Assembly (NCBI GenBank): GCA_035999765.1
Contig: CP108521.1
Location: forward strand, 5,022,001-5,086,000
DNA from: Streptomyces sp. NBC_01231
GTDB taxonomy: Bacteria > Actinomycetota > Actinomycetes > Streptomycetales > Streptomycetaceae
Reading direction: 5' to 3'
DNA: 64,000 nt
Shown here piece after piece: positions 3,673 through 35,959 of this stretch (its first letter is position 1; each line of letters begins with the position of its first letter). The notes below the pieces were generated by a model. It had not been told where the DNA came from, did not search any database, and saw only the letters and a program-made list of their open reading frames with translations. Both the position numbers and the translations under genes were made by a program.

Positions 3673-3920
3673 TCGTTGTCCGTCTCAGTTTCCGTCTGGG
3701 GGCGCCGTACGCGGATGCCGGCCCGTCGTGGTGTGCGCGGGGAGCTCCCATCCCGACTGCCATCGACCCAGGCAGAGCCGAGCAGGCGGGATCGGGATGG
3801 GAGCTGGGGGTGAGTGGTGGATTGATCTACTAAGCACACCGGCGCCGCTAGGGTCCCGGATCCGAGCCGAATCCGGTGATCTCGGCAGCCATCCCAAACA
3901 ACACGGACCACCTGTCTCGG

Positions 3921-3963
3921 CGTGCCAGACCCGTGCCAGGTGCGACGGGGAACCACGGGGAAC
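3921..3963 (+). repeat. Paired direct repeats, candidate integrase arm sites
   Basis: CGTGCCAG occurs at 3921 and 3932, and GGGGAAC at 3947 and 3957. The 10-11 bp spacing is one helical turn. I remember similar strings beside attP in Streptomyces integrative elements. They lie ~85 bp before the tRNA-Gly fragment. No gene is visible in 3618-4046. Confidence 0.45.
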
Positions 3964-4046
3964 TGCGGGCGATCGGTCATGGAGTCGAGAGCTATCGAAG
4001 TCGCTCCGCCGCAGGCCAGCGGCCAAAATCGGCCCTAGATCACCTG

Positions 4047-4090
4047 AGCTTCCCAAGCTGAGAGTGCGAGTTCGATTCTCGTCACCCGCT
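4047..4090 (+). other. Attachment-site scar: 3' part of tRNA-Gly(CCC)
   Basis: The anticodon loop TTCCCAA, stem, T-arm (GCGAGTTCGATTCTCG) and acceptor strand CACCCGCT of tRNA-Gly(CCC) are present. No D-arm or matching GCGGGTG strand lies upstream. The 5' side of the anticodon stem (TGAGC against GCTGA) already has a mismatch, which marks the crossover point. This is a second, independent integration scar. Confidence 0.78.
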
Positions 4091-4097
4091 CCGACAC

Positions 4098-4131
4098 AAA
4101 CCCCCAGGTCACAAGCCCGGGGGTTCTTTGT
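4098..4131. terminator. Bidirectional terminator
   Basis: AACCCCC and GGGGGTT form a stem followed by TTCTTTGTT. It could serve the tRNA-Gly remnant (plus strand) and the membrane protein gene that ends at 4178 (minus strand). Confidence 0.65.
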
Positions 4132-4177
4132 TCTCCGGACGCGCCGCCGAGGCTGTCACGGTCCACGCCTGGCGCTG

Positions 4178-4582
4178 TCAACGGTTGAACCACTCGCGCG
4201 CCGGGGCGCCCAGCATCGCACTGCCGGTCAGTGCGGCGACCGCCAACCCGAGGCCCGCGGCATACACGCCCGCGACCAAGACATTGACCAGTGAGAACAG
4301 CGCGATCGCGCACTCGACGACGAGAACAGTGACCCGCACCCAGCCGAACCGCTTCCACGCGAAGACGCCGGAGACGAAGAGCACCGCCGACGCGGAGAAG
4401 GCCATGAGGACGGAGAACCGGACCAGGCCGGGATCCGCGACATCCTGATGGTGGGTGAGACGGTCGTTCATCAGGGTCCAGCCGAGCCATCCGACAAGGC
4501 CGTTGAGCACGGCCTGGCACCACACCACCACCAACGCGCCCTTGACGCCCCGCGGCATACGCTCCGACACCTGAGTGACCAT
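4178..4582 (-). CDS. Small four-helix membrane protein
   Basis: A 134-residue protein with four hydrophobic stretches: VKGALVVVWCQAVLNGLVG (near 13-31), VRFSVLMAFSASAVLFVSG (54-72), VTVLVVECAIALFSLVNV (82-99) and VAGVYAAGLGLAVAALTG (100-118). The ATG at 4582 is chosen because GGAGGG lies just upstream; the frame stays open further 5' but without a ribosome site. I do not recognise a family. It is the first gene past the tRNA-Gly scar, so it belongs to the chromosome side of the junction. It is divergent from the lipoprotein gene at 4694. Confidence 0.7.
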   Translation of the reverse strand: MVTQVSERMPRGVKGALVVVWCQAVLNGLVGWLGWTLMNDRLTHHQDVADPGLVRFSVLMAFSASAVLFVSGVFAWKRFGWVRVTVLVVECAIALFSLVNVLVAGVYAAGLGLAVAALTGSAMLGAPAREWFNR

Positions 4583-4693
4583 GAGTCCCTCCCTCTCTTT
4601 CGCCCGGCCCTCAGCTTCCCGGGGCCGTGCCGGGACCCCTCCCGACGCTGTGCCGGTAGGCAGTACCCGACACACTCGTGAAGGGGGAAGTAC

Positions 4694-5374
4694 ATGGTGC
4701 GAGCGCGCCCGGAGGCGTTCCCGGCCGTCGTGGCCCTGGTCGCCGTACTGGTGTCGGCGTGCGGCGCGGCGGCGCCGCAGACGTCGCGGGAGGAGTTGCT
4801 CCAGGACTACATCGATTCGACCCACGTGAAGAACGACTGGTTGGGCGGCCAAGGCGGGACGAGTGCGGATCGGATCGCGAACTTCGCCTCTCGCGGCACG
4901 CCGGCCGACCTGCTGGGCCAACTGCTGTCCGCCCGGCCATGCGATGCCGACGCCGACTGCCCCCCGAGCGGAGCGTCCCGCCAGGCGGTGCGGGACTTCG
5001 CGGGGCCCGCCGGGTCGGTCTTCGAACGCTCCGTTCTGGTCAAGCGTCACAACGGGGCGCTGGAGCTGATCACGCTGTACGTGGCACGCACATCCGGCAA
5101 GGTCGCGGCGCTCGTCGACTCCCGCGGCAGGACCTACCCGGCCGGCCTGGACGACTTCCGTCATCACAACGACCTGCTCCTCCCGGACGACGTGATCCTC
5201 GTGCCGGCCGACATCACCTCCGTACCGGGTGAGGGAAAGGTCGTCGCGGTCTCCGGGCACACGGCCATGAACTGGCAACCGTGGCTCATCGGAACAACCG
5301 TCGCGGTGCTGGTGCTCGGAGCCGCGATCGGCGCGCGGACGGCCCGCCGCCGTACAGCGGAGGTACGCCCGTGA
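4694..5374 (+). CDS. Lipoprotein with C-terminal membrane anchor
   Basis: A 226-residue protein. A short signal (FPAVVALVAVLVSAC) ends in a lipobox LVSAC with the modified Cys near residue 22. A mostly hydrophilic extracellular domain with a CDADADC pair follows. Near the C terminus is a helix (WLIGTTVAVLVLGAAIGA, ~195-212) and then a basic tail, so the protein may be held at both ends. The GTGA overlap with the next gene (5371-5374) indicates one operon. I do not recognise the domain. GGGGGAAG at 4684 supplies the ribosome site. Confidence 0.75.
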   Translation: MVRARPEAFPAVVALVAVLVSACGAAAPQTSREELLQDYIDSTHVKNDWLGGQGGTSADRIANFASRGTPADLLGQLLSARPCDADADCPPSGASRQAVRDFAGPAGSVFERSVLVKRHNGALELITLYVARTSGKVAALVDSRGRTYPAGLDDFRHHNDLLLPDDVILVPADITSVPGEGKVVAVSGHTAMNWQPWLIGTTVAVLVLGAAIGARTARRRTAEVRP

Positions 5375-5805
5375 CCGGCTCGCCGAACGAAGAGGGCGCG
5401 GCGGAATTCCTGCCCGAGGAGGAGATGGAGGCGGACGCCCGCAGGCCCCGCGTGATCACCGCGGCGTTCTGGCTGCTGATCGCGGCCGCGGTGCTCTGGA
5501 TGCCGGTCGCCGGGGGCGGCGACCCGGCCGCAAGGCAGACGGAAACTCAGATCCTCATCGTCTACCTCGTGTTCGCCGTGCGCATCCGACGCAGCCGGTG
5601 GAAGGCCAGGATCGCCGTCACGGCCGCCGCCGTCTGGCTCCTCGTCGTACTGGGGTCCCGGGCGCAGGGCTTCACGGCGCCGGAGTATCCGTACGGGCGG
5701 GAGTACGCCGTGTTGGACAGCATGGCGGTGGTCCTGGCCGCCACCGGCGTGGCCCTGCTCTACGGCCGCCGCGGCACCGCGTATTTCCGCCGGCGGCCAC
5801 GGTGA
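5371..5805 (+). CDS. Small membrane protein, operon partner of lipoprotein
   Basis: A 144-residue protein starting at a GTG that overlaps the previous stop. An acidic N terminus (EEGAAEFLPEEEMEADA) is followed by about four membrane helices: VITAAFWLLIAAAVLWMPV, ILIVYLVFAVRI, IAVTAAAVWLLVVLGS and LDSMAVVLAATGVALLYG. It ends in a basic tail. Translational coupling suggests it acts with the membrane-anchored lipoprotein. Its function is unknown. Confidence 0.72.
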   Translation: MTGSPNEEGAAEFLPEEEMEADARRPRVITAAFWLLIAAAVLWMPVAGGGDPAARQTETQILIVYLVFAVRIRRSRWKARIAVTAAAVWLLVVLGSRAQGFTAPEYPYGREYAVLDSMAVVLAATGVALLYGRRGTAYFRRRPR

Positions 5806-5810
5806 CGGCG

Positions 5811-6638
5811 TCAGGCGGCGTCGATCAGTGCCAGGTCCATCGGTACGAGCGTGGTCGACGCCAGCAGGGCCCGGATCAGGTGGTCGTTGAGCGCGTTGCC
5901 CACCGGCTCGCCGAGCTCCTCGCGGGTCAGCCAGGGCACCCCGTCGCGGGACAGCCGGGTGCGCACGCCGTTGACCAGGTGCTCGACGCGCTTGTCCGTC
6001 CAGCCCGCGTGCGGCTGCGAGTCGGCGAGTTCGGCGGCGGTCTGCCGCCAGGTCAGCGGCTGTGGCCGGGGCTCGTGCAGTAGGTAGCGCCGACTGAGGA
6101 CGACGAGGGCGAGCTTCTCCTGTTCGGTGAGCGCCCACATCCGGGGCGGGCGGGTGACGTCCCCGTGCCGTGGCGGCGGCCGGTCGCCCTCGGGGCCGGT
6201 GACGAAGACCTCCAGCAGGTGCTCGCGCCCCCGGGAACCGCCGACGAACAGCGGGGTGTAGCCGGTGTCGAGCGGCAGTGACTCCTCGTCCCGGAACAGC
6301 AGCCGGGCCCCCGCACAACGGATCGGCAGACGCCCGGAGTTGCTCACCCACCAGTGGCCGTCCCGGTGCCTGAGCGTGCCCTGGTGGCGACTGACCTGGG
6401 GGTCGTCCTCCCCGAGGCAGACATGCACCTCGGGGCGGTTGCGACCGAACAGGACCTCGCGGCCTTCCCCCGGCCCCAACGTCAGACCTCCGGTCAGCGC
6501 GAGCGCGAAGACGGTGCCGGGCAGCGGTGCGGACGCGCCCCGGGCGAGGCTCCCATGGGTGGCGGGCAGGTGTCGGCCACCCGGAGCGGGTATTCCCCGC
6601 TCTCCCGGCCGGCTCCGTGCCGTTCCCGGTTCGGTCAT
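5811..6638 (-). CDS. FHA-domain phosphothreonine-binding protein
   Basis: A 275-residue protein with one FHA domain at about 55-135. The expected landmarks are visible: GR in FGRNRP, the SRH triad in QVSRHQG and the Asn in WWVSNSG. FHA domains bind phosphothreonine peptides. The C-terminal part (LTEQEKLALVVLSRR... to VEHLVNGVRTRLSRDG) looks like a helical, winged-helix-type segment. The kinase stop codon lies 1 nt before this ATG (TGA-C-ATG), so the pair is almost certainly co-translated and this protein is a likely kinase partner or substrate (inference). Confidence 0.85.
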   Translation of the reverse strand: MTEPGTARSRPGERGIPAPGGRHLPATHGSLARGASAPLPGTVFALALTGGLTLGPGEGREVLFGRNRPEVHVCLGEDDPQVSRHQGTLRHRDGHWWVSNSGRLPIRCAGARLLFRDEESLPLDTGYTPLFVGGSRGREHLLEVFVTGPEGDRPPPRHGDVTRPPRMWALTEQEKLALVVLSRRYLLHEPRPQPLTWRQTAAELADSQPHAGWTDKRVEHLVNGVRTRLSRDGVPWLTREELGEPVGNALNDHLIRALLASTTLVPMDLALIDAA

Positions 6639-6639
6639 G

Positions 6640-8601
6640 TCACCGCTCCTGCGGTCGCTTCGCGATGTTCTGTACGACGACGGCTGCGAACTCCCTTGCG
6701 GAGTCGCACAGTTGCTCGGTCGGCTGCGGGGCGTACACGGTCAGCTGGAACAGTTCGGTCGTGCGGTCGCCGACGGAGTCCGTGTAGGTGCGGTGCGGTG
6801 TCCGTACGGTGCAGCTGTCGTCCTCGGCCTCGTCCGCGATGGAGTAGCTCTTGGTGCCGGCGACGTTCACCGGTGTTCCGTCGTCGGAGTCCAGCGAGTT
6901 GTCCCGGCTGAACTGGATCTCCACCTCGCGTGTGCCGTCGTCGCTCGACCAGTCGCAGGCCCAGGAACCGAAACCGCGGTCCCGGTTGTCCGCCTCGACG
7001 CCGGGAAGCCGCTTGAGTTCGGTGGCGTCGAGCAGTGCGCAGGTGTCCAGCCGGGCCAGGGAGTTCGCGGCCGGCCGCGACGAACGCCGGGGCACCGGGC
7101 CGTCGGCCAGCACGCCGACCACGTGGTCGGTGGCGGCGTCGGCCATCTGGCACGGGTCGGGCGCCGCTTCGTCGAACTGCTTCCCGATCACGCGGATCTG
7201 CTTGCCGTCGGCGGTCAGGACGGCCCGCTCGCAGGCCCTCCCGTCCCGTTTGAGGGTCACGACCGTGAGGCCGTTGGTGAGGTGGGTGGACAGGATGCCG
7301 TCGAAGTCGTCCCGGTCCGAGTCGAGGTTGACCTGGACGTCCGCGATGTCGTCACCGCTGTTGTTGCGCACCAGGACATCGCAGCGGTCGAACTCCCCGT
7401 AGTCCGGGGCGAGTACGGTGGCTCCGAAGCGGCTCAGCGATGCGACGTCGAGCAGCCCGCAGGGGTCCGCCGTACGCTCGTCGCCGATGGCACCGGCCGA
7501 CGCCGTGGCCGAGGGTTTCGCGTCGGTCGCGTCCGTACGGCCGCCCTGGTCTCCCTCGTCCTTCGAGGCCCACGGGCCGAAAAGGACCAGCCCGGCCGTG
7601 ATCGCACCCGCCGCGGCCAGCGCCACCACCGTGATCGCCAACCGGTGCCGGCGTCGGCGTACGGGCCGTGGCGGCTGCAGCATGAAGGGCGTGGAGTCTC
7701 GTGCGCGGCGTACGAGTCGCCGCAGCCGGAGTGTGGGGGACGTGAGGTCCCGCATCCGGCTGTCGTGCAACTGCTCCGCTATGTGCGGGGGCGGTGGTGC
7801 GGCACGCGTCAGCAGCTCCTGCGCCCTGGCGGCGTCGGGCCGGCGCCGGGGCTCCACCTCCAGCAGAGCGGTGAGCGGCCCCTCCAGCGGGCCGGTCCGG
7901 TGCGCGGGCTCGATGTGTCCCTCGACGGCCCGGGCCAGGTAGGCCATGAGGTGTTCGGCCTCCCCGTACGGCGACCGGCCCTCGACCGCCATGAACAGGG
8001 AGGCGCCCAGGGAGAACACGTCGGACTTCTCGCCCGCGGGCAGCCCCTTGGCCAACTCCGGGGCCAGATACCGGGGTTTGCCGCGCACACTGCCCGTCGT
8101 GCTGTGGGTGACGTCGCTCCACAGAGCCCGCGAGATCCCGAAGTCGGTCAGTCTCGCGACGCCTTCGTCGGTGACGAGGATGTTCTCCGGCGTCACATCG
8201 CCGTGCACCACGCCCTCGTGGTGGGACTTCGCCAACGCGGCCGCTATCTGGCAGCCTATCGACCCGGCATCCTCGGGCGTGAGCGGACCGCTCTCCACCA
8301 GGATCTGCGCGAGGCTGCGCGAGGGGACGTATTCCATGATGATCCAGCAGGTAGCGCCCTCGTCGACGAAGTCGAAGACGCCCACGATGTTCGGGTGGTG
8401 CAGCCGCCCGGCGTTGCGCGCCTCGCCCATGAGCCGTCGCGCTGCCCGATCGTCGTCCAGGCGTGCGCACTTGACCGCGACCTGGCGTTCGAGCCGCTCG
8501 TCCCAGGCCAGCCAGACGACGCCCATCCCGCCTCTGCCGATGGGCTCCCGCAAGAGGTACCGGCCGGCGATCTTGTCCCCGGCCTCCGGCGTCACCAGCA
8601 C
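6640..8601 (-). CDS. Membrane Ser/Thr protein kinase with two DUF3558-like sensor repeats
   Basis: A 653-residue protein. The kinase domain spans about 10-265, with the glycine loop GRGGMGVVW, VAVK lysine, catalytic loop HGDVTPEN (Gly replaces the usual Arg of HRD; the catalytic Asp is kept), DFG, and an activation loop ending in APE. A Pro/Arg-rich juxtamembrane segment precedes one helix (LAITVVALAAAGAITAGLVLF). The outer part has two similar units, each starting CGLLD or CALLD and containing a second Cys (FDRCDVL; WACDW), which recall DUF3558. The GTG at 8601 is preferred because AGGGG lies upstream and the conserved text begins there; the frame is open to 8826. It is coupled to the FHA gene. 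Confidence 0.88.
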   Translation of the reverse strand: MLVTPEAGDKIAGRYLLREPIGRGGMGVVWLAWDERLERQVAVKCARLDDDRAARRLMGEARNAGRLHHPNIVGVFDFVDEGATCWIIMEYVPSRSLAQILVESGPLTPEDAGSIGCQIAAALAKSHHEGVVHGDVTPENILVTDEGVARLTDFGISRALWSDVTHSTTGSVRGKPRYLAPELAKGLPAGEKSDVFSLGASLFMAVEGRSPYGEAEHLMAYLARAVEGHIEPAHRTGPLEGPLTALLEVEPRRRPDAARAQELLTRAAPPPPHIAEQLHDSRMRDLTSPTLRLRRLVRRARDSTPFMLQPPRPVRRRRHRLAITVVALAAAGAITAGLVLFGPWASKDEGDQGGRTDATDAKPSATASAGAIGDERTADPCGLLDVASLSRFGATVLAPDYGEFDRCDVLVRNNSGDDIADVQVNLDSDRDDFDGILSTHLTNGLTVVTLKRDGRACERAVLTADGKQIRVIGKQFDEAAPDPCQMADAATDHVVGVLADGPVPRRSSRPAANSLARLDTCALLDATELKRLPGVEADNRDRGFGSWACDWSSDDGTREVEIQFSRDNSLDSDDGTPVNVAGTKSYSIADEAEDDSCTVRTPHRTYTDSVGDRTTELFQLTVYAPQPTEQLCDSAREFAAVVVQNIAKRPQER

Positions 8602-31563: not shown

Positions 31564-31761
31564 TTACTTCAGCGCGAGCCAGGCCACGGCGGCGACGACC
31601 GCCACCGCGACGACCACGCCGATGATGAGGCCGAGGCGGGGACCGCTGGAAGCGGCGGCCTGCTGCTGGCGGCCCTGAGGGGCCTCGTCCACGAACGCGC
31701 GGAACATCTGGGTGCTGCCGGCCGGGTCGTTGTTGCCCTGGGGGCCCTGGGTGTTAGCCAT
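31564..31761 (-). CDS. Tail-anchored small membrane protein
   Basis: A 65-residue protein: a Gln/Gly/Asn-rich start (MANTQGPQGNNDPAGSTQMF) and a C-terminal helix (LGLIIGVVVAVAVVAAVAWL) ending in LALK. It is conserved in Streptomyces as far as I recall and has no enzymatic motif. Confidence 0.7.
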   Translation of the reverse strand: MANTQGPQGNNDPAGSTQMFRAFVDEAPQGRQQQAAASSGPRLGLIIGVVVAVAVVAAVAWLALK

Positions 31762-31906
31762 GCCCCGAGACCCTAGCGAATCCGGGGGTGAGGCCCAAGT
31801 GGAGACCGTGAGCCCTCACAACACCCCCTTACCTGCACGTTTACGTTCGCAATACATGCCTTTGCCAAGTTTTTGGATGCTGCCCCCGACATTCTATTTG
31901 CCTGTA

Positions 31907-31940
31907 GCAACCAACAGCTTCTATGGTTGCCCTAAGCAAC
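31907..31940. promoter_or_regulatory. MarR operator candidate with three GCAAC half-sites
   Basis: GCAACCA (31907) pairs with TGGTTGC (31924) across 10 bp, and GTTGC (31926) pairs with GCAAC (31936) across 5 bp. The cluster ends 16 bp before the MarR start, so it overlaps the promoter or leader of MarR and its downstream exporter genes. Confidence 0.65.
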
Positions 31941-31956
31941 AAACATGGGAGGTGTG

Positions 31957-32475
31957 ATGGCAGGGCAGGCGCAGTACGAGGAGCTGATCCGTCAGTTCAG
32001 TGCCTTCGGCGCCGTACGCAGGGAGTTGGGACGCATTTTGCCGTCCGACTGCCCCAGCGGCTCCGCCGCCGTGCTGACCCTCCTCGACCGCCACGGGGAC
32101 ATGCGCATGAGCAAGCTCGCCGAGTTTCTCGCCGTGGACATGTCGGTGACCAGTCGGCATGTGGCCCACGTGGCCGACCGGGGCTGGATCGAGCGCTCCC
32201 CCGATCCGGCCGACAAGCGCTCACGCATCCTGCGCCTCACGCCGGCGGGCCGGGACCGGATGGACGAGCTGTCGCGACGGACCTCTCAGATGCTCGCCGA
32301 GCGGCTGAGCGACTGGAGTGACGACGAGGTCGGACAGCTCACCCACCTCATGGCGCGGCTCAGGTCGAGCTTCGACGACTGCCGTGTCACGACACCGGAG
32401 CCCCGGCCGCCCACCACGCACGAGCTCGAACGGTCCACGGACCGGTCCACCCGTACACCCGCGATCACCAAGTAA
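31957..32475 (+). CDS. MarR-family repressor
   Basis: A 172-residue winged-helix regulator. The HTH is MRMSKLAEFLAVDMSVTSRH and the wing is WIERSPDPADKRSRILRLTP. MGGVMAGQ gives two Met choices; the second (31957) has GGGAGG just upstream. It sits 13 bp before the MFS gene in the same direction, so it probably represses its own operon through the GCAAC half-sites just upstream. The ligand is unknown; MarR proteins usually bind phenolic or lipophilic compounds. Confidence 0.9.
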   Translation: MAGQAQYEELIRQFSAFGAVRRELGRILPSDCPSGSAAVLTLLDRHGDMRMSKLAEFLAVDMSVTSRHVAHVADRGWIERSPDPADKRSRILRLTPAGRDRMDELSRRTSQMLAERLSDWSDDEVGQLTHLMARLRSSFDDCRVTTPEPRPPTTHELERSTDRSTRTPAITK

Positions 32476-32488
32476 GAGAAGGAAGCTC

Positions 32489-35035
32489 ATGGCAACGACC
32501 ACACCAGCCGGTGTGCGGGCCCACACCAAGCACGGAGGAGGGGCCTCCGACAGCGATCCGATGACGCACCGGCAGATCATGGAGGCGCTCTCCGGGCTGC
32601 TGCTCGGGATGTTCGTGGCGATCCTGTCGTCCACGATCGTCACCAACGCGCTTCCCGAGATCATCGGCGACCTCGGCGGCGGCCAGTCCGCCTACACCTG
32701 GGTCGTCACCGCCGCGCTGCTGTCCATGACGGCGGCCACGCCCCTGTGGGGCAAGCTCTCCGACCTGTTCAGCAAGAAGGCTCTCGTCCAGATAGCCCTC
32801 GTCATCTACGTGCTCGGATCGGCCGCCGCGGGTCTGTCGCAGAACCCCGGCATGCTGATCGCCTGCCGCGTGGTGCAGGGCATCGGTGTCGGCGGTCTGT
32901 CCGCCCTCGCGCAGATCGTGATGGCCGCGATGATCTCCCCGCGTGAGCGCGGGCGCTACTCCGGCTACCTCGGCGCGACCTTCGCCATCGCCACCGTCGG
33001 CGGTCCGCTGCTCGGCGGTGTCATCACCGACACCTCGTGGCTCGGCTGGCGCTGGTGCTTCTACGTCGGTGTGCCGTTCGCGGTCATCGCGCTGATCGTG
33101 CTGCAGAAGACCCTGCACCTGCCCGTCGTCAAGCGGGAGGTCAAGGTCGACTGGGGCGGCGCGTTCTTCATCTCCGCCGCGGTCTCCCTGCTGCTGCTGT
33201 GGGTCACCTTCGCCGGTGACAAGTACGACTGGGTGTCGTGGCAGACGTACGCGATGGTCGGCGGCTCGATCGTGCTCGGTCTGCTGTTCGTGCTGGTCGA
33301 GTCCAAGGCCAGCGAGCCGATCATCCCGCTGCGGCTGTTCCGCAACCGCACCATCACGCTGTCCTCGCTCGCCTCGCTCTTCGTGGGCGTCGCGATGTTC
33401 ACCGGCACCGTCTTCTTCAGCCAGTTCTTCCAGCTGGCCCGGGACAAGTCCCCGACCATGTCGGGTGTCATGACGATCCCGATGATCGGCGGTCTGTTCA
33501 TCTCCTCGACCGTCTCCGGGCAGTTCATCACCCGGACCGGCAAGTGGAAGGTCTGGCTGGTCATCGGCGGCGTGCTGGTGACGGCCGGCCTGGGCCTGCT
33601 GGGCACCGTCCGGTACGACACGGACTACTGGAAGATGGCGATCTTCATGGCCCTGCTGGGCCTGGGCATCGGCATGATGATGCAGAACCTGGTGCTCTCC
33701 ACGCAGAACCAGGTGGCCCCCGCCGACCTCGGCTCGGCCAGCTCCACGGTCACGTTCTTCCGTTCCCTGGGCGGTGCGGTCGGCGTCTCCGCGCTGGGCG
33801 CCGTGATGGCCCACCGCATCACCGACTACGCCCAGGACGGCATCGCCGACCTCGGCCCCAAGTACGCCTCCATGGCCTCGGGTGCCGGCTCCGGCTCCAT
33901 CCCGGACATGGACAAGCTGCCCGCCCCGCTGCGCACGGTCATGGAGAGCGCGTACGGCCACGGCATCGCGGACGTCTTCCTGATCGCGTCGGGCCTGGCC
34001 CTGCTCGCCTTCCTCATCACGCTGTTCATCAAGGAGGTCCCGTTGCGGACGAAGGGCGCACTCGCGCAGACGGCCTCGGAGGAGACCCCGGACCAGGCGG
34101 CCCCGGCCGCGGCCGCGCAGACCCCCGCCGAGGTGCAGGCTCCGGCCGAGGCGCAGGCTTCCGCCCAGGCGCACGTCCCGAGCTGGGCCGTCACCGAGTC
34201 CACCACCGAGGCCGCTCCCGAGGGCACGCAGCGGCTCGCCGCGGTGGCAACGATCGCCCGTCCTGAGGGCTCGGCCGGTGTGCCGGTCGGTGGTTTCGTG
34301 CGGGGCGCGGAGGGTGTTCCGGTCGCGGGTGCGGCGGTGACGCTGATCTCACTGGCGGGTCGGCAACTGGGCCGCGCGGTCGCGCAGGCGGACGGCTCCT
34401 ACGGGCTGGACGCTCCGGGCACGGGTTCGTATGTCCTGATCGCCTCGGCGGACGGCTTCCAGCCGCAGGCGTCCACCGTCGTGGTGGGCGGCGAGCCGGT
34501 GGCGTACGACATTCTCCTGAGCGGTACCAGTGGCCTGAGCGGGCTGGTGCGGGCCGCCCACACCGGCAGCCCGGTGAAGGACGCGATGGTCATCGTCACC
34601 GACGTACGCGGGGACCTGCTGGCCACCGCCGTCAGCGGTGAGCAGGGCGAGTTCTCGTTCGCGGAGCTGGTGCCCGGTGCGGTGACGGTCGCCGTGAACG
34701 CCGCCGGATACCGGCCGCGTGCCCTGCCGGTGGAGGTCGGCGGCAGCGGGGTGACCCGCGTCGAGGTGGACCTGGATTCCGGGGCTCAGCTGCAGGGGGT
34801 CGTGCGGGCGCCGCACGGTCCGCTGGCGGACGCCCGGGTGACGCTGGTCGACGCGGCCGGCAACGTCGTCGCCACCGCCACCACCGGCACCGACGGGGCG
34901 TACGCCTTCACCGATCTGGACGGGGGCGACTACACGGTCATCGCGACCGGATACGCCCCGGTCGCGACCGCGCTGACCGTCCAGGGCCAGGGCGTCGACG
35001 GCCACGACATCGAACTCTCCCACCCCGGCGAGTAG
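32489..35035 (+). CDS. DHA2-type MFS exporter fused to three carboxypeptidase-regulatory-like domains
   Basis: An 848-residue protein. Residues ~35-535 form a 14-helix DHA2 exporter: motif A GKLSDLFSKKALVQ, motif C ATFAIATVGGPLLGGV. An Ala/Gln/Glu-rich linker (~540-590) leads to three tandem beta-sandwich units of the CarboxypepD_reg/CNA-B type (~597-670, 677-750, 757-840), each with a turn such as ADGSYGLD, EQGEFSFAEL or TDGAYAFTDL. With 14 helices both ends should be cytoplasmic, which is unusual for this domain. The downstream YceI gene carries the same kind of domain, so the two proteins may interact (inference). Confidence 0.9.
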   Translation: MATTTPAGVRAHTKHGGGASDSDPMTHRQIMEALSGLLLGMFVAILSSTIVTNALPEIIGDLGGGQSAYTWVVTAALLSMTAATPLWGKLSDLFSKKALVQIALVIYVLGSAAAGLSQNPGMLIACRVVQGIGVGGLSALAQIVMAAMISPRERGRYSGYLGATFAIATVGGPLLGGVITDTSWLGWRWCFYVGVPFAVIALIVLQKTLHLPVVKREVKVDWGGAFFISAAVSLLLLWVTFAGDKYDWVSWQTYAMVGGSIVLGLLFVLVESKASEPIIPLRLFRNRTITLSSLASLFVGVAMFTGTVFFSQFFQLARDKSPTMSGVMTIPMIGGLFISSTVSGQFITRTGKWKVWLVIGGVLVTAGLGLLGTVRYDTDYWKMAIFMALLGLGIGMMMQNLVLSTQNQVAPADLGSASSTVTFFRSLGGAVGVSALGAVMAHRITDYAQDGIADLGPKYASMASGAGSGSIPDMDKLPAPLRTVMESAYGHGIADVFLIASGLALLAFLITLFIKEVPLRTKGALAQTASEETPDQAAPAAAAQTPAEVQAPAEAQASAQAHVPSWAVTESTTEAAPEGTQRLAAVATIARPEGSAGVPVGGFVRGAEGVPVAGAAVTLISLAGRQLGRAVAQADGSYGLDAPGTGSYVLIASADGFQPQASTVVVGGEPVAYDILLSGTSGLSGLVRAAHTGSPVKDAMVIVTDVRGDLLATAVSGEQGEFSFAELVPGAVTVAVNAAGYRPRALPVEVGGSGVTRVEVDLDSGAQLQGVVRAPHGPLADARVTLVDAAGNVVATATTGTDGAYAFTDLDGGDYTVIATGYAPVATALTVQGQGVDGHDIELSHPGE

Positions 35036-35053
35036 TTCGGATCCGGCCCGGGT

Positions 35054-35082
35054 CGGGCACGCCTCCGCTCGGAGCGTGCCCG
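35054..35082 (+). terminator. Hairpin between the MFS-fusion and YceI genes
   Basis: CGGGCACGC and GCGTGCCCG form a 9-bp stem with an 11-nt loop. No T-run follows directly; it may be a partial terminator that sets lower expression of the YceI gene. Confidence 0.6.
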
Positions 35083-35137
35083 GCGCGGGCCGTTCTCTTT
35101 ATGACCAGTTTGTAATGCTTTCGCAGGGAGAAAAGGG

Positions 35138-35959
35138 ATGGGACTGACCGCGAAGATCCGTACGCGGGACGGATGGGCCGTGTCGCACGCGGTAGTCACG
35201 GTGACCGACATGACCGGCTCGCAGGTGCTGCGCGCCGAGGCCGACTCCGAGGGTGCCGTACGGGACACGACCGCGCTGGCGCCGGGCGCGTACACCGTCA
35301 TCGTCACGGCCGTCGGGTACGCGCCCGCCGCCGCGAGCGCCCTCGTCACGGCGAGCGGCCGGGCCGAGGTCGGCACCGTGACGCTGGCCCGGCAGGGCGG
35401 GACCGAGCTGCCGCCGCCGGGGCCGTGGACCGTCGACCCGGCGCACTCCAGTGTGTCCGCCGCCGCCCAGCACCTGGGTATCTCCACCGTGCACGGACGG
35501 TTCACCGAGTTCACGGCCTCGATCGAGGTCGCCCCGGACGACGTGGCCAAGTCCCGCGTGGAGGCGGTCATCCGGGCGGCGTCCATCGACACCGGCAACG
35601 GCATGCGCGACACGCACCTGAGGTCCGCGGACTTCCTGGACGTCGAGCGGTTCCCGGAGATCACGTACCACTCGACGGGACTGACGCCGGCCGGTTCGGA
35701 CCGCTGGACCGTGCACGGGGAGCTGACCCTGCACGGCGTCGCCCGACCGGTCGACCTGGACCTCGCCTACCTCGGCACCGGCTCCGATCCCTGGGGCGGC
35801 ACCCGGGCGGCCTACCGGGCGACGACGGAACTGCATCGCGAGGACTTCGCCATGAACTACAACCAGGTCGTCCAGGCGGGCATCGCCGCCATCGGCACGA
35901 AGCTGAAGGTGGAGCTGGACGTCCAGGCGGTGCAGGGCGACTCGCTGCCGCAGGCCTGA
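35138..35959 (+). CDS. YceI-family protein with N-terminal carboxypeptidase-regulatory-like domain
   Basis: A 273-residue protein. Residues 1-85 are a beta-sandwich like the three on the MFS protein (SHAVVTVTDMTGSQVLRAEA, GAYTVIVTAVGYAPAA). Residues ~95-270 are YceI: WTVDPAHSSVSAAAQHLG, DTHLRSADFLDVERFPEITY and LTLHGVARPVDLDL. YceI is a lipocalin-like barrel that binds polyisoprenoids or amides. There is no signal peptide, unlike E. coli YceI, so this one should be cytoplasmic. GCAGGGAG precedes the ATG. Confidence 0.92.
   Translation: MGLTAKIRTRDGWAVSHAVVTVTDMTGSQVLRAEADSEGAVRDTTALAPGAYTVIVTAVGYAPAAASALVTASGRAEVGTVTLARQGGTELPPPGPWTVDPAHSSVSAAAQHLGISTVHGRFTEFTASIEVAPDDVAKSRVEAVIRAASIDTGNGMRDTHLRSADFLDVERFPEITYHSTGLTPAGSDRWTVHGELTLHGVARPVDLDLAYLGTGSDPWGGTRAAYRATTELHREDFAMNYNQVVQAGIAAIGTKLKVELDVQAVQGDSLPQA

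Follow-up and report, generated by a model that had tools for sequence, protein, structure and literature searches.

Does an exporter of the major facilitator superfamily (MFS) that ends in a soluble tail work together with the YceI-family protein encoded directly downstream of it, and what would such a partnership be for? The question is raised by a locus of Streptomyces sp. NBC_01231, which lies in a 64,000-nucleotide stretch of contig CP108521.1 (assembly GCA_035999765.1, positions 5,022,001 to 5,086,000 of the forward strand; hereafter the window) within a single-contig 11.34-Mb genome. An earlier note, made from the sequence of this stretch, had described a MarR regulator, the tailed exporter and the YceI protein as a candidate new export system. 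By comparing the locus across related genomes, we find that the retention of the YceI gene, termed here YceI-1, depends one-way on the tail of the exporter among the genomes compared.

The proposed gene content, a MarR gene, an MFS gene with a three-domain CarboxypepD_reg tail and a CarboxypepD_reg-YceI gene, is confirmed by Pfam. All three genes are on the plus strand, and the MarR gene (31945..32475; Pfam MarR, 1.3e-13) heads the cluster as was claimed, directly 5' of the co-oriented efflux gene; its start is more likely the ATG at 31957, behind GGGAGG, which gives a protein of 172 amino acids. The exporter gene (32489..35035; 848 amino acids; MFS_1, 1.4e-47) encodes a 14-helix core delimited by hydrophobic segments and a structure model (residues 1-520; 32489..34048), followed by an Ala/Pro/Glu-rich linker (residues 521-597; 34049..34279) that is predicted to be disordered over residues 521-595, with a predicted local distance difference test (pLDDT) score of 21-36 over most of its length. 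The C-terminal part contains three CarboxypepD_reg stretches (2.8e-36), which Pfam and the model place as the sandwiches D1 (residues 598-674; 34280..34510), D2 (residues 681-761; 34529..34771) and D3 (residues 766-838; 34784..35002). The YceI-1 gene (35138..35959; 273 amino acids), assigned by Pfam, a fold match and start-site comparison, encodes an N-terminal CarboxypepD_reg sandwich (residues 3-83 or 4-83), whose 33.2 bits are barely over the cut-off of 32.3, and a lipocalin-like barrel (YceI, PF04264; residues 97-264; 1.4e-46; 159 bits against a cut-off of 23.7).

Conservation of the trio was assessed in the best 80 of 527 confirmed loci, and thus in near relatives only (Streptomyces, except for one Kitasatospora and one record titled simply Actinobacteria bacterium). 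The check proposed in the earlier note turned out in its favor: the MarR gene, the tailed pump and the YceI gene follow each other in this order in 74 of the 80 closest YceI loci, and the other six run into contig ends. Outside the genus, a YceI-1-like match (1.7e-124) was found in one genome, from another genus of the family, in a set of 245 genomes from the order that belong mostly to the same genus. Of 296 sampled genomes of the genus (completeness at least 95%), 213 contain YceI-1, 216 the three-domain tail and 287 the pump core. Both tail and YceI-1 are present in 211 genomes, the tail only in five, YceI only in two and neither in 78; these sets were cross-read by eye from match lists, and the totals agree. 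The two YceI-only genomes are contig ends, inside the tail in G163 and in the linker in G169, and no resolved genome among the 296 has an intact YceI-1 beside a tail-less pump. G211 is tabled as having neither, although in two of its contigs the sequence stops within a tail. The pump core gave no match at the cut-off in 9 of the 296 genomes; with a looser cut-off, applied to the YceI-negative genomes not yet seen together with G163 and G169, 72 of 77 matched and five did not, and the loci were compared with those of 36 relatives.

The changes of tail and YceI were followed on a pump-core tree of 106 rows and an outgroup, from which the tail was left out; it was built by a quick method, and 39 of its 104 inner branches are open. 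Left out of the tree were, because of contig ends, G028, G163, G169 and two copies from G211, and, because of a broken frame, G227. Rows that retain a single tail domain (G102, G298 and the second G020 copy) count as tail-less, whereas G010, whose tail is partly masked, counts as tailed from its unmasked end, and G005 as tailed with YceI. The rows comprise 28 with tail and YceI, five with the tail only, none with YceI only and 73 with neither, and they require at least 11 changes of the tail and at least 12 of YceI. The tail-only rows need five changes on the best tree, at least four of which are forced by well-supported (starred) branches. Six independent starred-branch pairs differ in the tail; YceI differs in the same way in 4-6 of them (mean 5.4) and in the opposite way in none. 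Together with the 211 genomes that have both, these contrasts support the coupling of tail and YceI suggested in the earlier note.

Separate lesions are found in several loci, which argues against a single deletion of both elements as the full account. The pump of G102 retains D3 in frame, and the locus also contains a separate remnant of YceI, whereas in G298 D3 is kept and YceI is absent. In G030 the last residues of D3 are fused in frame to the linker and a relic of the YceI C-terminus follows, G008 has kept the end of the tail, and G179 has a YceI relic and no tail. Conversely, the whole tail stands with a broken YceI remnant in G144 and G118, the latter being a possible sequencing error.

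Two controls address the specificity of this pattern. Six of eight tail-less relatives keep the full tail on a paralogous pump, MFS2, the other two being without an MFS2 match, so that the tails of a genome are not all lost together. A second CarboxypepD_reg-YceI gene of the window's genome, YceI-2, occurs in 19 of the 29 genomes with a tail and in 5 of the 8 without one (p = 1); as its occurrence is independent of the tail, it was rejected as a stand-in partner. The tail/core divergence ratio has a median of 2.84 in the five tail-only genomes versus 1.53 in 26 rows with tail and YceI (Mann-Whitney p 0.017, with rows that are not independent; G005, G010 and G028 left out). Exceptions are the tail-only genome G118 with a ratio of 1.65 and two rows with tail and YceI, a reciprocal pair, with ratios above 3.

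The regulatory part of the locus points to a known system. Two operator palindromes of the form TTGC-N5-GCAA, TTGCCTGTAGCAA (31898..31910, plus strand) and TTGCCCTAAGCAA (31927..31939, plus strand; 29 bp 3' of the first), lie 5' of the MarR gene, and both match the published consensus exactly. The earlier note had counted three GCAAC/GTTGC half-sites here; these are real, yet they form part of two 13-bp palindromes. A third, weaker operator-like site (31856..31868, plus strand) has one mismatch to TTGCCYKHRSCAA and rests on position, sites with up to two mismatches occurring at chance frequency (23 vs 20); its layout resembles that of SAV4189 site a in PMC6036246. The motif TTGC-N0-8-GCAA precedes the MarR gene in 94 of 98 loci (mean of 1.57 and maximum of 6 in single-base shuffles), the consensus palindrome in 91 and two copies of it in 79. 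A search for exact matches located the doubled palindrome only once in the 11.34-Mb genome.

According to PMC6036246, the MarR protein SAV4189 of S. avermitilis represses the operon sav_4189-sav_4190, which it binds at three 13-bp sites TTGCCYKHRSCAA and from which it is released by thiostrepton and hygromycin B, and the S. coelicolor counterparts are named SCO4032 and SCO4031. When sav_4190 is deleted, avermectin production is reported there to rise by about 56-67% in wild-type cells and by 15% in an industrial strain. The locus studied here shares with that system an MFS efflux gene immediately behind a MarR gene and the same palindromes in the marR promoter, and the extent of the sav_4190 deletion (+104 to +2446; PMC6036246) suggests a gene long enough to include a tail. 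From operator, gene order and size we infer that the MarR protein is the counterpart of SAV4189/SCO4032, and operator and gene order similarly suggest that the pump corresponds to SAV4190/SCO4031. In contrast, neither YceI nor sav_4191 nor a carboxypeptidase is mentioned in the text of PMC6036246, and literature searches of titles and abstract openings in open-licence papers met no link between the tail and YceI.

Many pumps lack the tail and still have the same regulator and operators (both palindromes in 47 of 60 tail-less MarR loci), which argues that the pump does not need the module; no MarR match was found beside some more divergent tail-less pumps. The idea of a new export system was thus too broad, as the MarR-pump pair corresponds to the published operon and persists with its operators in many genomes without tail and YceI. 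New, as far as these literature searches go, are the accessory module of tail and YceI, its one-way dependence, and the occurrence of the tail cassette next to another gene of carrier type. The second G020 copy (L134) is a MarR-pump pair with palindromes and a one-domain tail, and has no YceI in the stretch fetched. On the other side of the operators, a divergent gene (31566-31761, minus strand) encodes a 65-amino-acid protein with one C-terminal helix; its end resembles that of SCO4033, a tail-anchored candidate listed in PMC3087755, and it is perhaps the counterpart of the divergent sav_4188 (PMC6036246).

Downstream of the pump gene, the 102-nucleotide gap before YceI-1 folds at -56.7 kcal/mol (z-score -5.07) and contains a GC-rich hairpin (35044..35092, plus strand), a candidate terminator-like or processing element. 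Low-energy folds were obtained in the 17 gaps folded, of which the 16 others are without a shuffled control. No sigma-70-like promoter was detected by scanning, and the single terminator-like match was no excess over shuffles (mean 1.0). A different element, a hairpin with a GNRA-like AGGGGACG loop and variable GC stems, follows the pump stop codon at 26 of 106 loci (L115, L117 and L119 among them), whether or not YceI is present, and is absent from the window, where the hairpin described above lies. Stems of at least 6 with the AGGGGACG loop were found in 24 cases versus 0-2 for six other loops in 2.8 Mb of partly overlapping sequence; an Rfam search of four loci gave no match.

On which side of the membrane the tail and YceI-1 lie was assessed from loop charges, structure models and start sites. 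The nearest solved relatives of the pump by sequence are EfpA, EmrB, the Rv1410 homologue MHAS2168 (8pnl) and QacA, and its closest folds are EmrB, EfpA (solved with lipids) and MHAS2168. The TIGR00711 model (efflux_EmrB) scores 220.3 bits where 230.2 are required, and the pump is therefore not assigned to a curated subfamily. As judged from its sequence and model, the pump is a DHA2-type 14-helix MFS exporter: it has 14 hydrophobic segments, and the model (mean pLDDT 74.6) comprises fourteen long helices, disorder over residues 521-595 and three sandwiches. The inner (even) loops 0-12 contain 3, 3, 3, 4, 4, 3 and 0 lysines plus arginines, with 6 in the 91 residues of the tail-side stretch, versus 0, 1, 0, 1, 2 and 2 in the outer (odd) loops 1-11 and 4 in the 54 residues of loop 13. 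The positive-inside bias is therefore clear for the first twelve loops only, inner loop 12 without such residues adding nothing. Because the number of helices is even, both ends of the pump are predicted to be cytosolic.

The frame of YceI-1 in the window has no earlier start codon. Among 24 orthologues, 22 start with ATG at the same place and in two the match began a few residues in; an earlier in-frame start is absent in 10, and no signal-like stretch was found upstream of the remaining ones (mean hydropathy over 12 residues at most 0.93). The absence of a signal peptide claimed in the earlier note thus agrees with both the window frame and the orthologues, and its placement of both parts at the cytoplasmic face of a 14-helix pump is borne out as a prediction by loop charges, model and start-site comparison. 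Tail and YceI-1 are accordingly both predicted to be cytosolic, and an extracellular tail was rejected on the loop charges and the missing YceI-1 signal peptide.

The model of YceI-1 (pLDDT 82) matches 7bwl (deposited as an antibiotic sequester), 1y0g, TT1927b, HP1286 and BcnA/BcnB. Reported ligands of YceI lipocalins comprise octaprenyl pyrophosphate, the vitamins E and K2 and hydrophobic antibiotics; BcnA and BcnB held octaprenyl pyrophosphate, and the secreted BcnA captured hydrophobic antibiotics (PMC5350466). The YceI barrel is shared by sequence and fold with these bacterial lipocalins (BcnA, TT1927b, E. coli YceI and 7bwl), and by homology YceI-1 would bind a hydrophobic ligand. It differs from them by its N-terminal CarboxypepD_reg fusion, its tie to an MFS pump and the lack of a signal peptide, which sets it apart from secretion of the BcnA type.

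A second comparison is with the LprG-Rv1410c (P55) triacylglyceride exporter of mycobacteria, in which the MFS pump Rv1410 passes lipid to the dedicated binder LprG on the outer side, as described in PMC10576003. In both systems the MFS pump shares its locus, which is conserved in the present case, with a partner that binds lipid in mycobacteria and would do so here by homology. LprG is a periplasmic lipoprotein that receives its cargo outside, whereas YceI-1, which has no signal peptide and so does not qualify as an exported lipoprotein of this type, is predicted to be cytosolic beside a pump with a soluble tail. The fold of LprG is other than that of YceI.

The tail is found on further exporters of the same genome, namely two more MFS pumps with a three-domain tail, one single-domain MFS pump and one single-domain MMPL exporter. 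Corresponding domains are 54-62% (D1), 46-52% (D2) and 57-64% (D3) identical between pumps, compared with 32% for D1 and D2 and 44% for D2 and D3 within the window pump (MFS1). Tails are better conserved than cores between paralogues (58% and 28% for MFS1 and MFS3, 52% and 40% for MFS1 and MFS2, 51% and 31% for MFS2 and MFS3), so that the tail behaves as a unit moving between pumps. MFS2 is present in 31 of 61 relatives, our genome included, and at 27 of 30 loci (L229-L258 set) a gene for a START-like protein (Polyketide_cyc2, 'lipid transport') lies upstream on the same strand, at most about 0.6 kb away; the other three are contig ends. The START-like gene and this second tailed pump occupy 3718-4206 and 4340-6793 of locus L025, and the divergent MFS2 copies L152 and L153 also have a START-like gene. 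Two tailed pumps thus adjoin proteins of two different ligand-binding fold families. The 16 kb around the third tailed pump (L026) contain no YceI-1 or START-like match. In the MMPL exporter (L029, 2577-5804), which has a C-terminal D1-like CarboxypepD_reg domain, the start of the frame is unsettled. YceI-2 (L027, 7358-8239, minus strand) has the same domain order as YceI-1 and 43-44% identity to it; in contrast, the gene calls in its 15 kb include no pump, and its neighbour is, as we take it from its sequence, an arylamine N-acetyltransferase-like gene.

Taken together, we tentatively favor, at not quite an even chance, a drug-inducible operon of the SAV4189/SAV4190 type to which a cytosolic module of tail and YceI has been added, with the YceI protein as a carrier that serves the pump via the tail. 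The ligand of the barrel would most likely be a lipophilic molecule, bound either within the cytosol or at the inner membrane leaflet, and the protein would serve the pump only with the tail present. In the simplest form, the tail would be a docking place for YceI near the inner entrance of the pump, reached directly or through a third partner, from which the ligand might be handed to the pump; unlike LprG, YceI-1 would come into play ahead of the pump. The probable effect of the module is a broader or faster export of greasy substrates, or a tuning of the pump. As the cassette is also present on other exporters, further partners are likely.

A broader proposal, which we regard as doubtful, is that D1-D2-D3, as prealbumin-like sandwiches on a disordered tether, form a portable cassette of Streptomyces on distant MFS pumps that recruits cytosolic carriers of hydrophobic ligands. 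The carrier would be a YceI lipocalin at one pump and a START-like protein at another, so that cargo never crosses the open cytosol, and single D1-like domains would extend the scheme to another MFS and an MMPL exporter.

Several observations weigh against a YceI carrier that serves the pump through its tail. The tail is kept without an intact YceI gene in G118, G144, G235, G246 and G303, while in G005 tail and YceI are present and the pump frame is broken inside the core, either really or by a sequencing error. The sign test on the tree gives a median p of about 0.06, which makes the tree test suggestive when taken alone; deep tail-less clades may be single events, and because tail and YceI are adjacent, one deletion may remove both. 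The strong hairpin between the two genes may uncouple their expression. The tail cassette also occurs on exporters without a YceI-1 match in the fetched neighbourhood, and matched domains are not needed at MFS2, whose START-like neighbour is without a sandwich. The earlier note had called the domains of YceI and pump matching, and a marked kinship is rejected: the YceI-1 N-domain is 30-39% identical to the tail domains of its own pump (D2 being the best single match), 29-36% to those of other tailed exporters and 34% to the YceI-2 N-domain. Finally, hygromycin B, one of the two inducers of SAV4189, is hydrophilic.

Among the alternatives, the tail and YceI could form a regulatory or assembly module, in which the barrel senses a lipid such as an isoprenoid or menaquinone and alters the activity, oligomer state or placement of the pump with no hand-over of cargo. 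The same one-way dependence of YceI on the tail would follow, the persistence of tail-less pumps with regulator and operator would fit a module that modulates rather than enables export, and the cassette is common to cores as distant as MFS1 and MFS3, with one D1-like domain on an MMPL exporter. We consider this explanation rather unlikely, however, as the roles of YceI proteins given in PMC5350466 are ligand capture or binding, and the neighbour of MFS2 is likewise of a ligand-binding fold family.

Alternatively, tail and YceI gene might be contiguous passengers in a deletion-prone stretch, with YceI-1 serving an unrelated job such as isoprenoid storage. The adjacency of the two, the GC-rich hairpins between them, the large deletions that recur at the locus, the five genomes with the tail alone and the borderline sign test are all compatible with such a lack of coupling. 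Against this stand the separate lesions in several lineages, the lack of a resolved genome with YceI alone, the YceI-2 and MFS2 controls and the looser tails of tail-only genomes, which make it quite improbable. That tail and YceI lie outside the cell, with YceI as an antibiotic-catching lipocalin secreted like BcnA, agrees with the mostly extracellular location of CarboxypepD_reg domains elsewhere, and is very improbable given that YceI-1 of the window lacks a signal peptide and nothing resembling one precedes the 24 orthologues, that the helices are even in number and the first twelve loops show a positive-inside bias, and that the model comprises 14 helices and a disordered tether.

Hydrophobic drugs and metabolites of the cytosol are mostly assumed to arrive at MFS exporters by diffusing freely or by partitioning into the membrane. 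If YceI-1 does serve the pump through its tail, a tail-dependent soluble carrier would provide a direct cytosolic hand-off route. The natural losses of tail and YceI represent ready-made lineages for comparison, and the putative partner gene, which the text of PMC6036246 does not mention, adjoins a pump whose loss raised the yield of avermectin.

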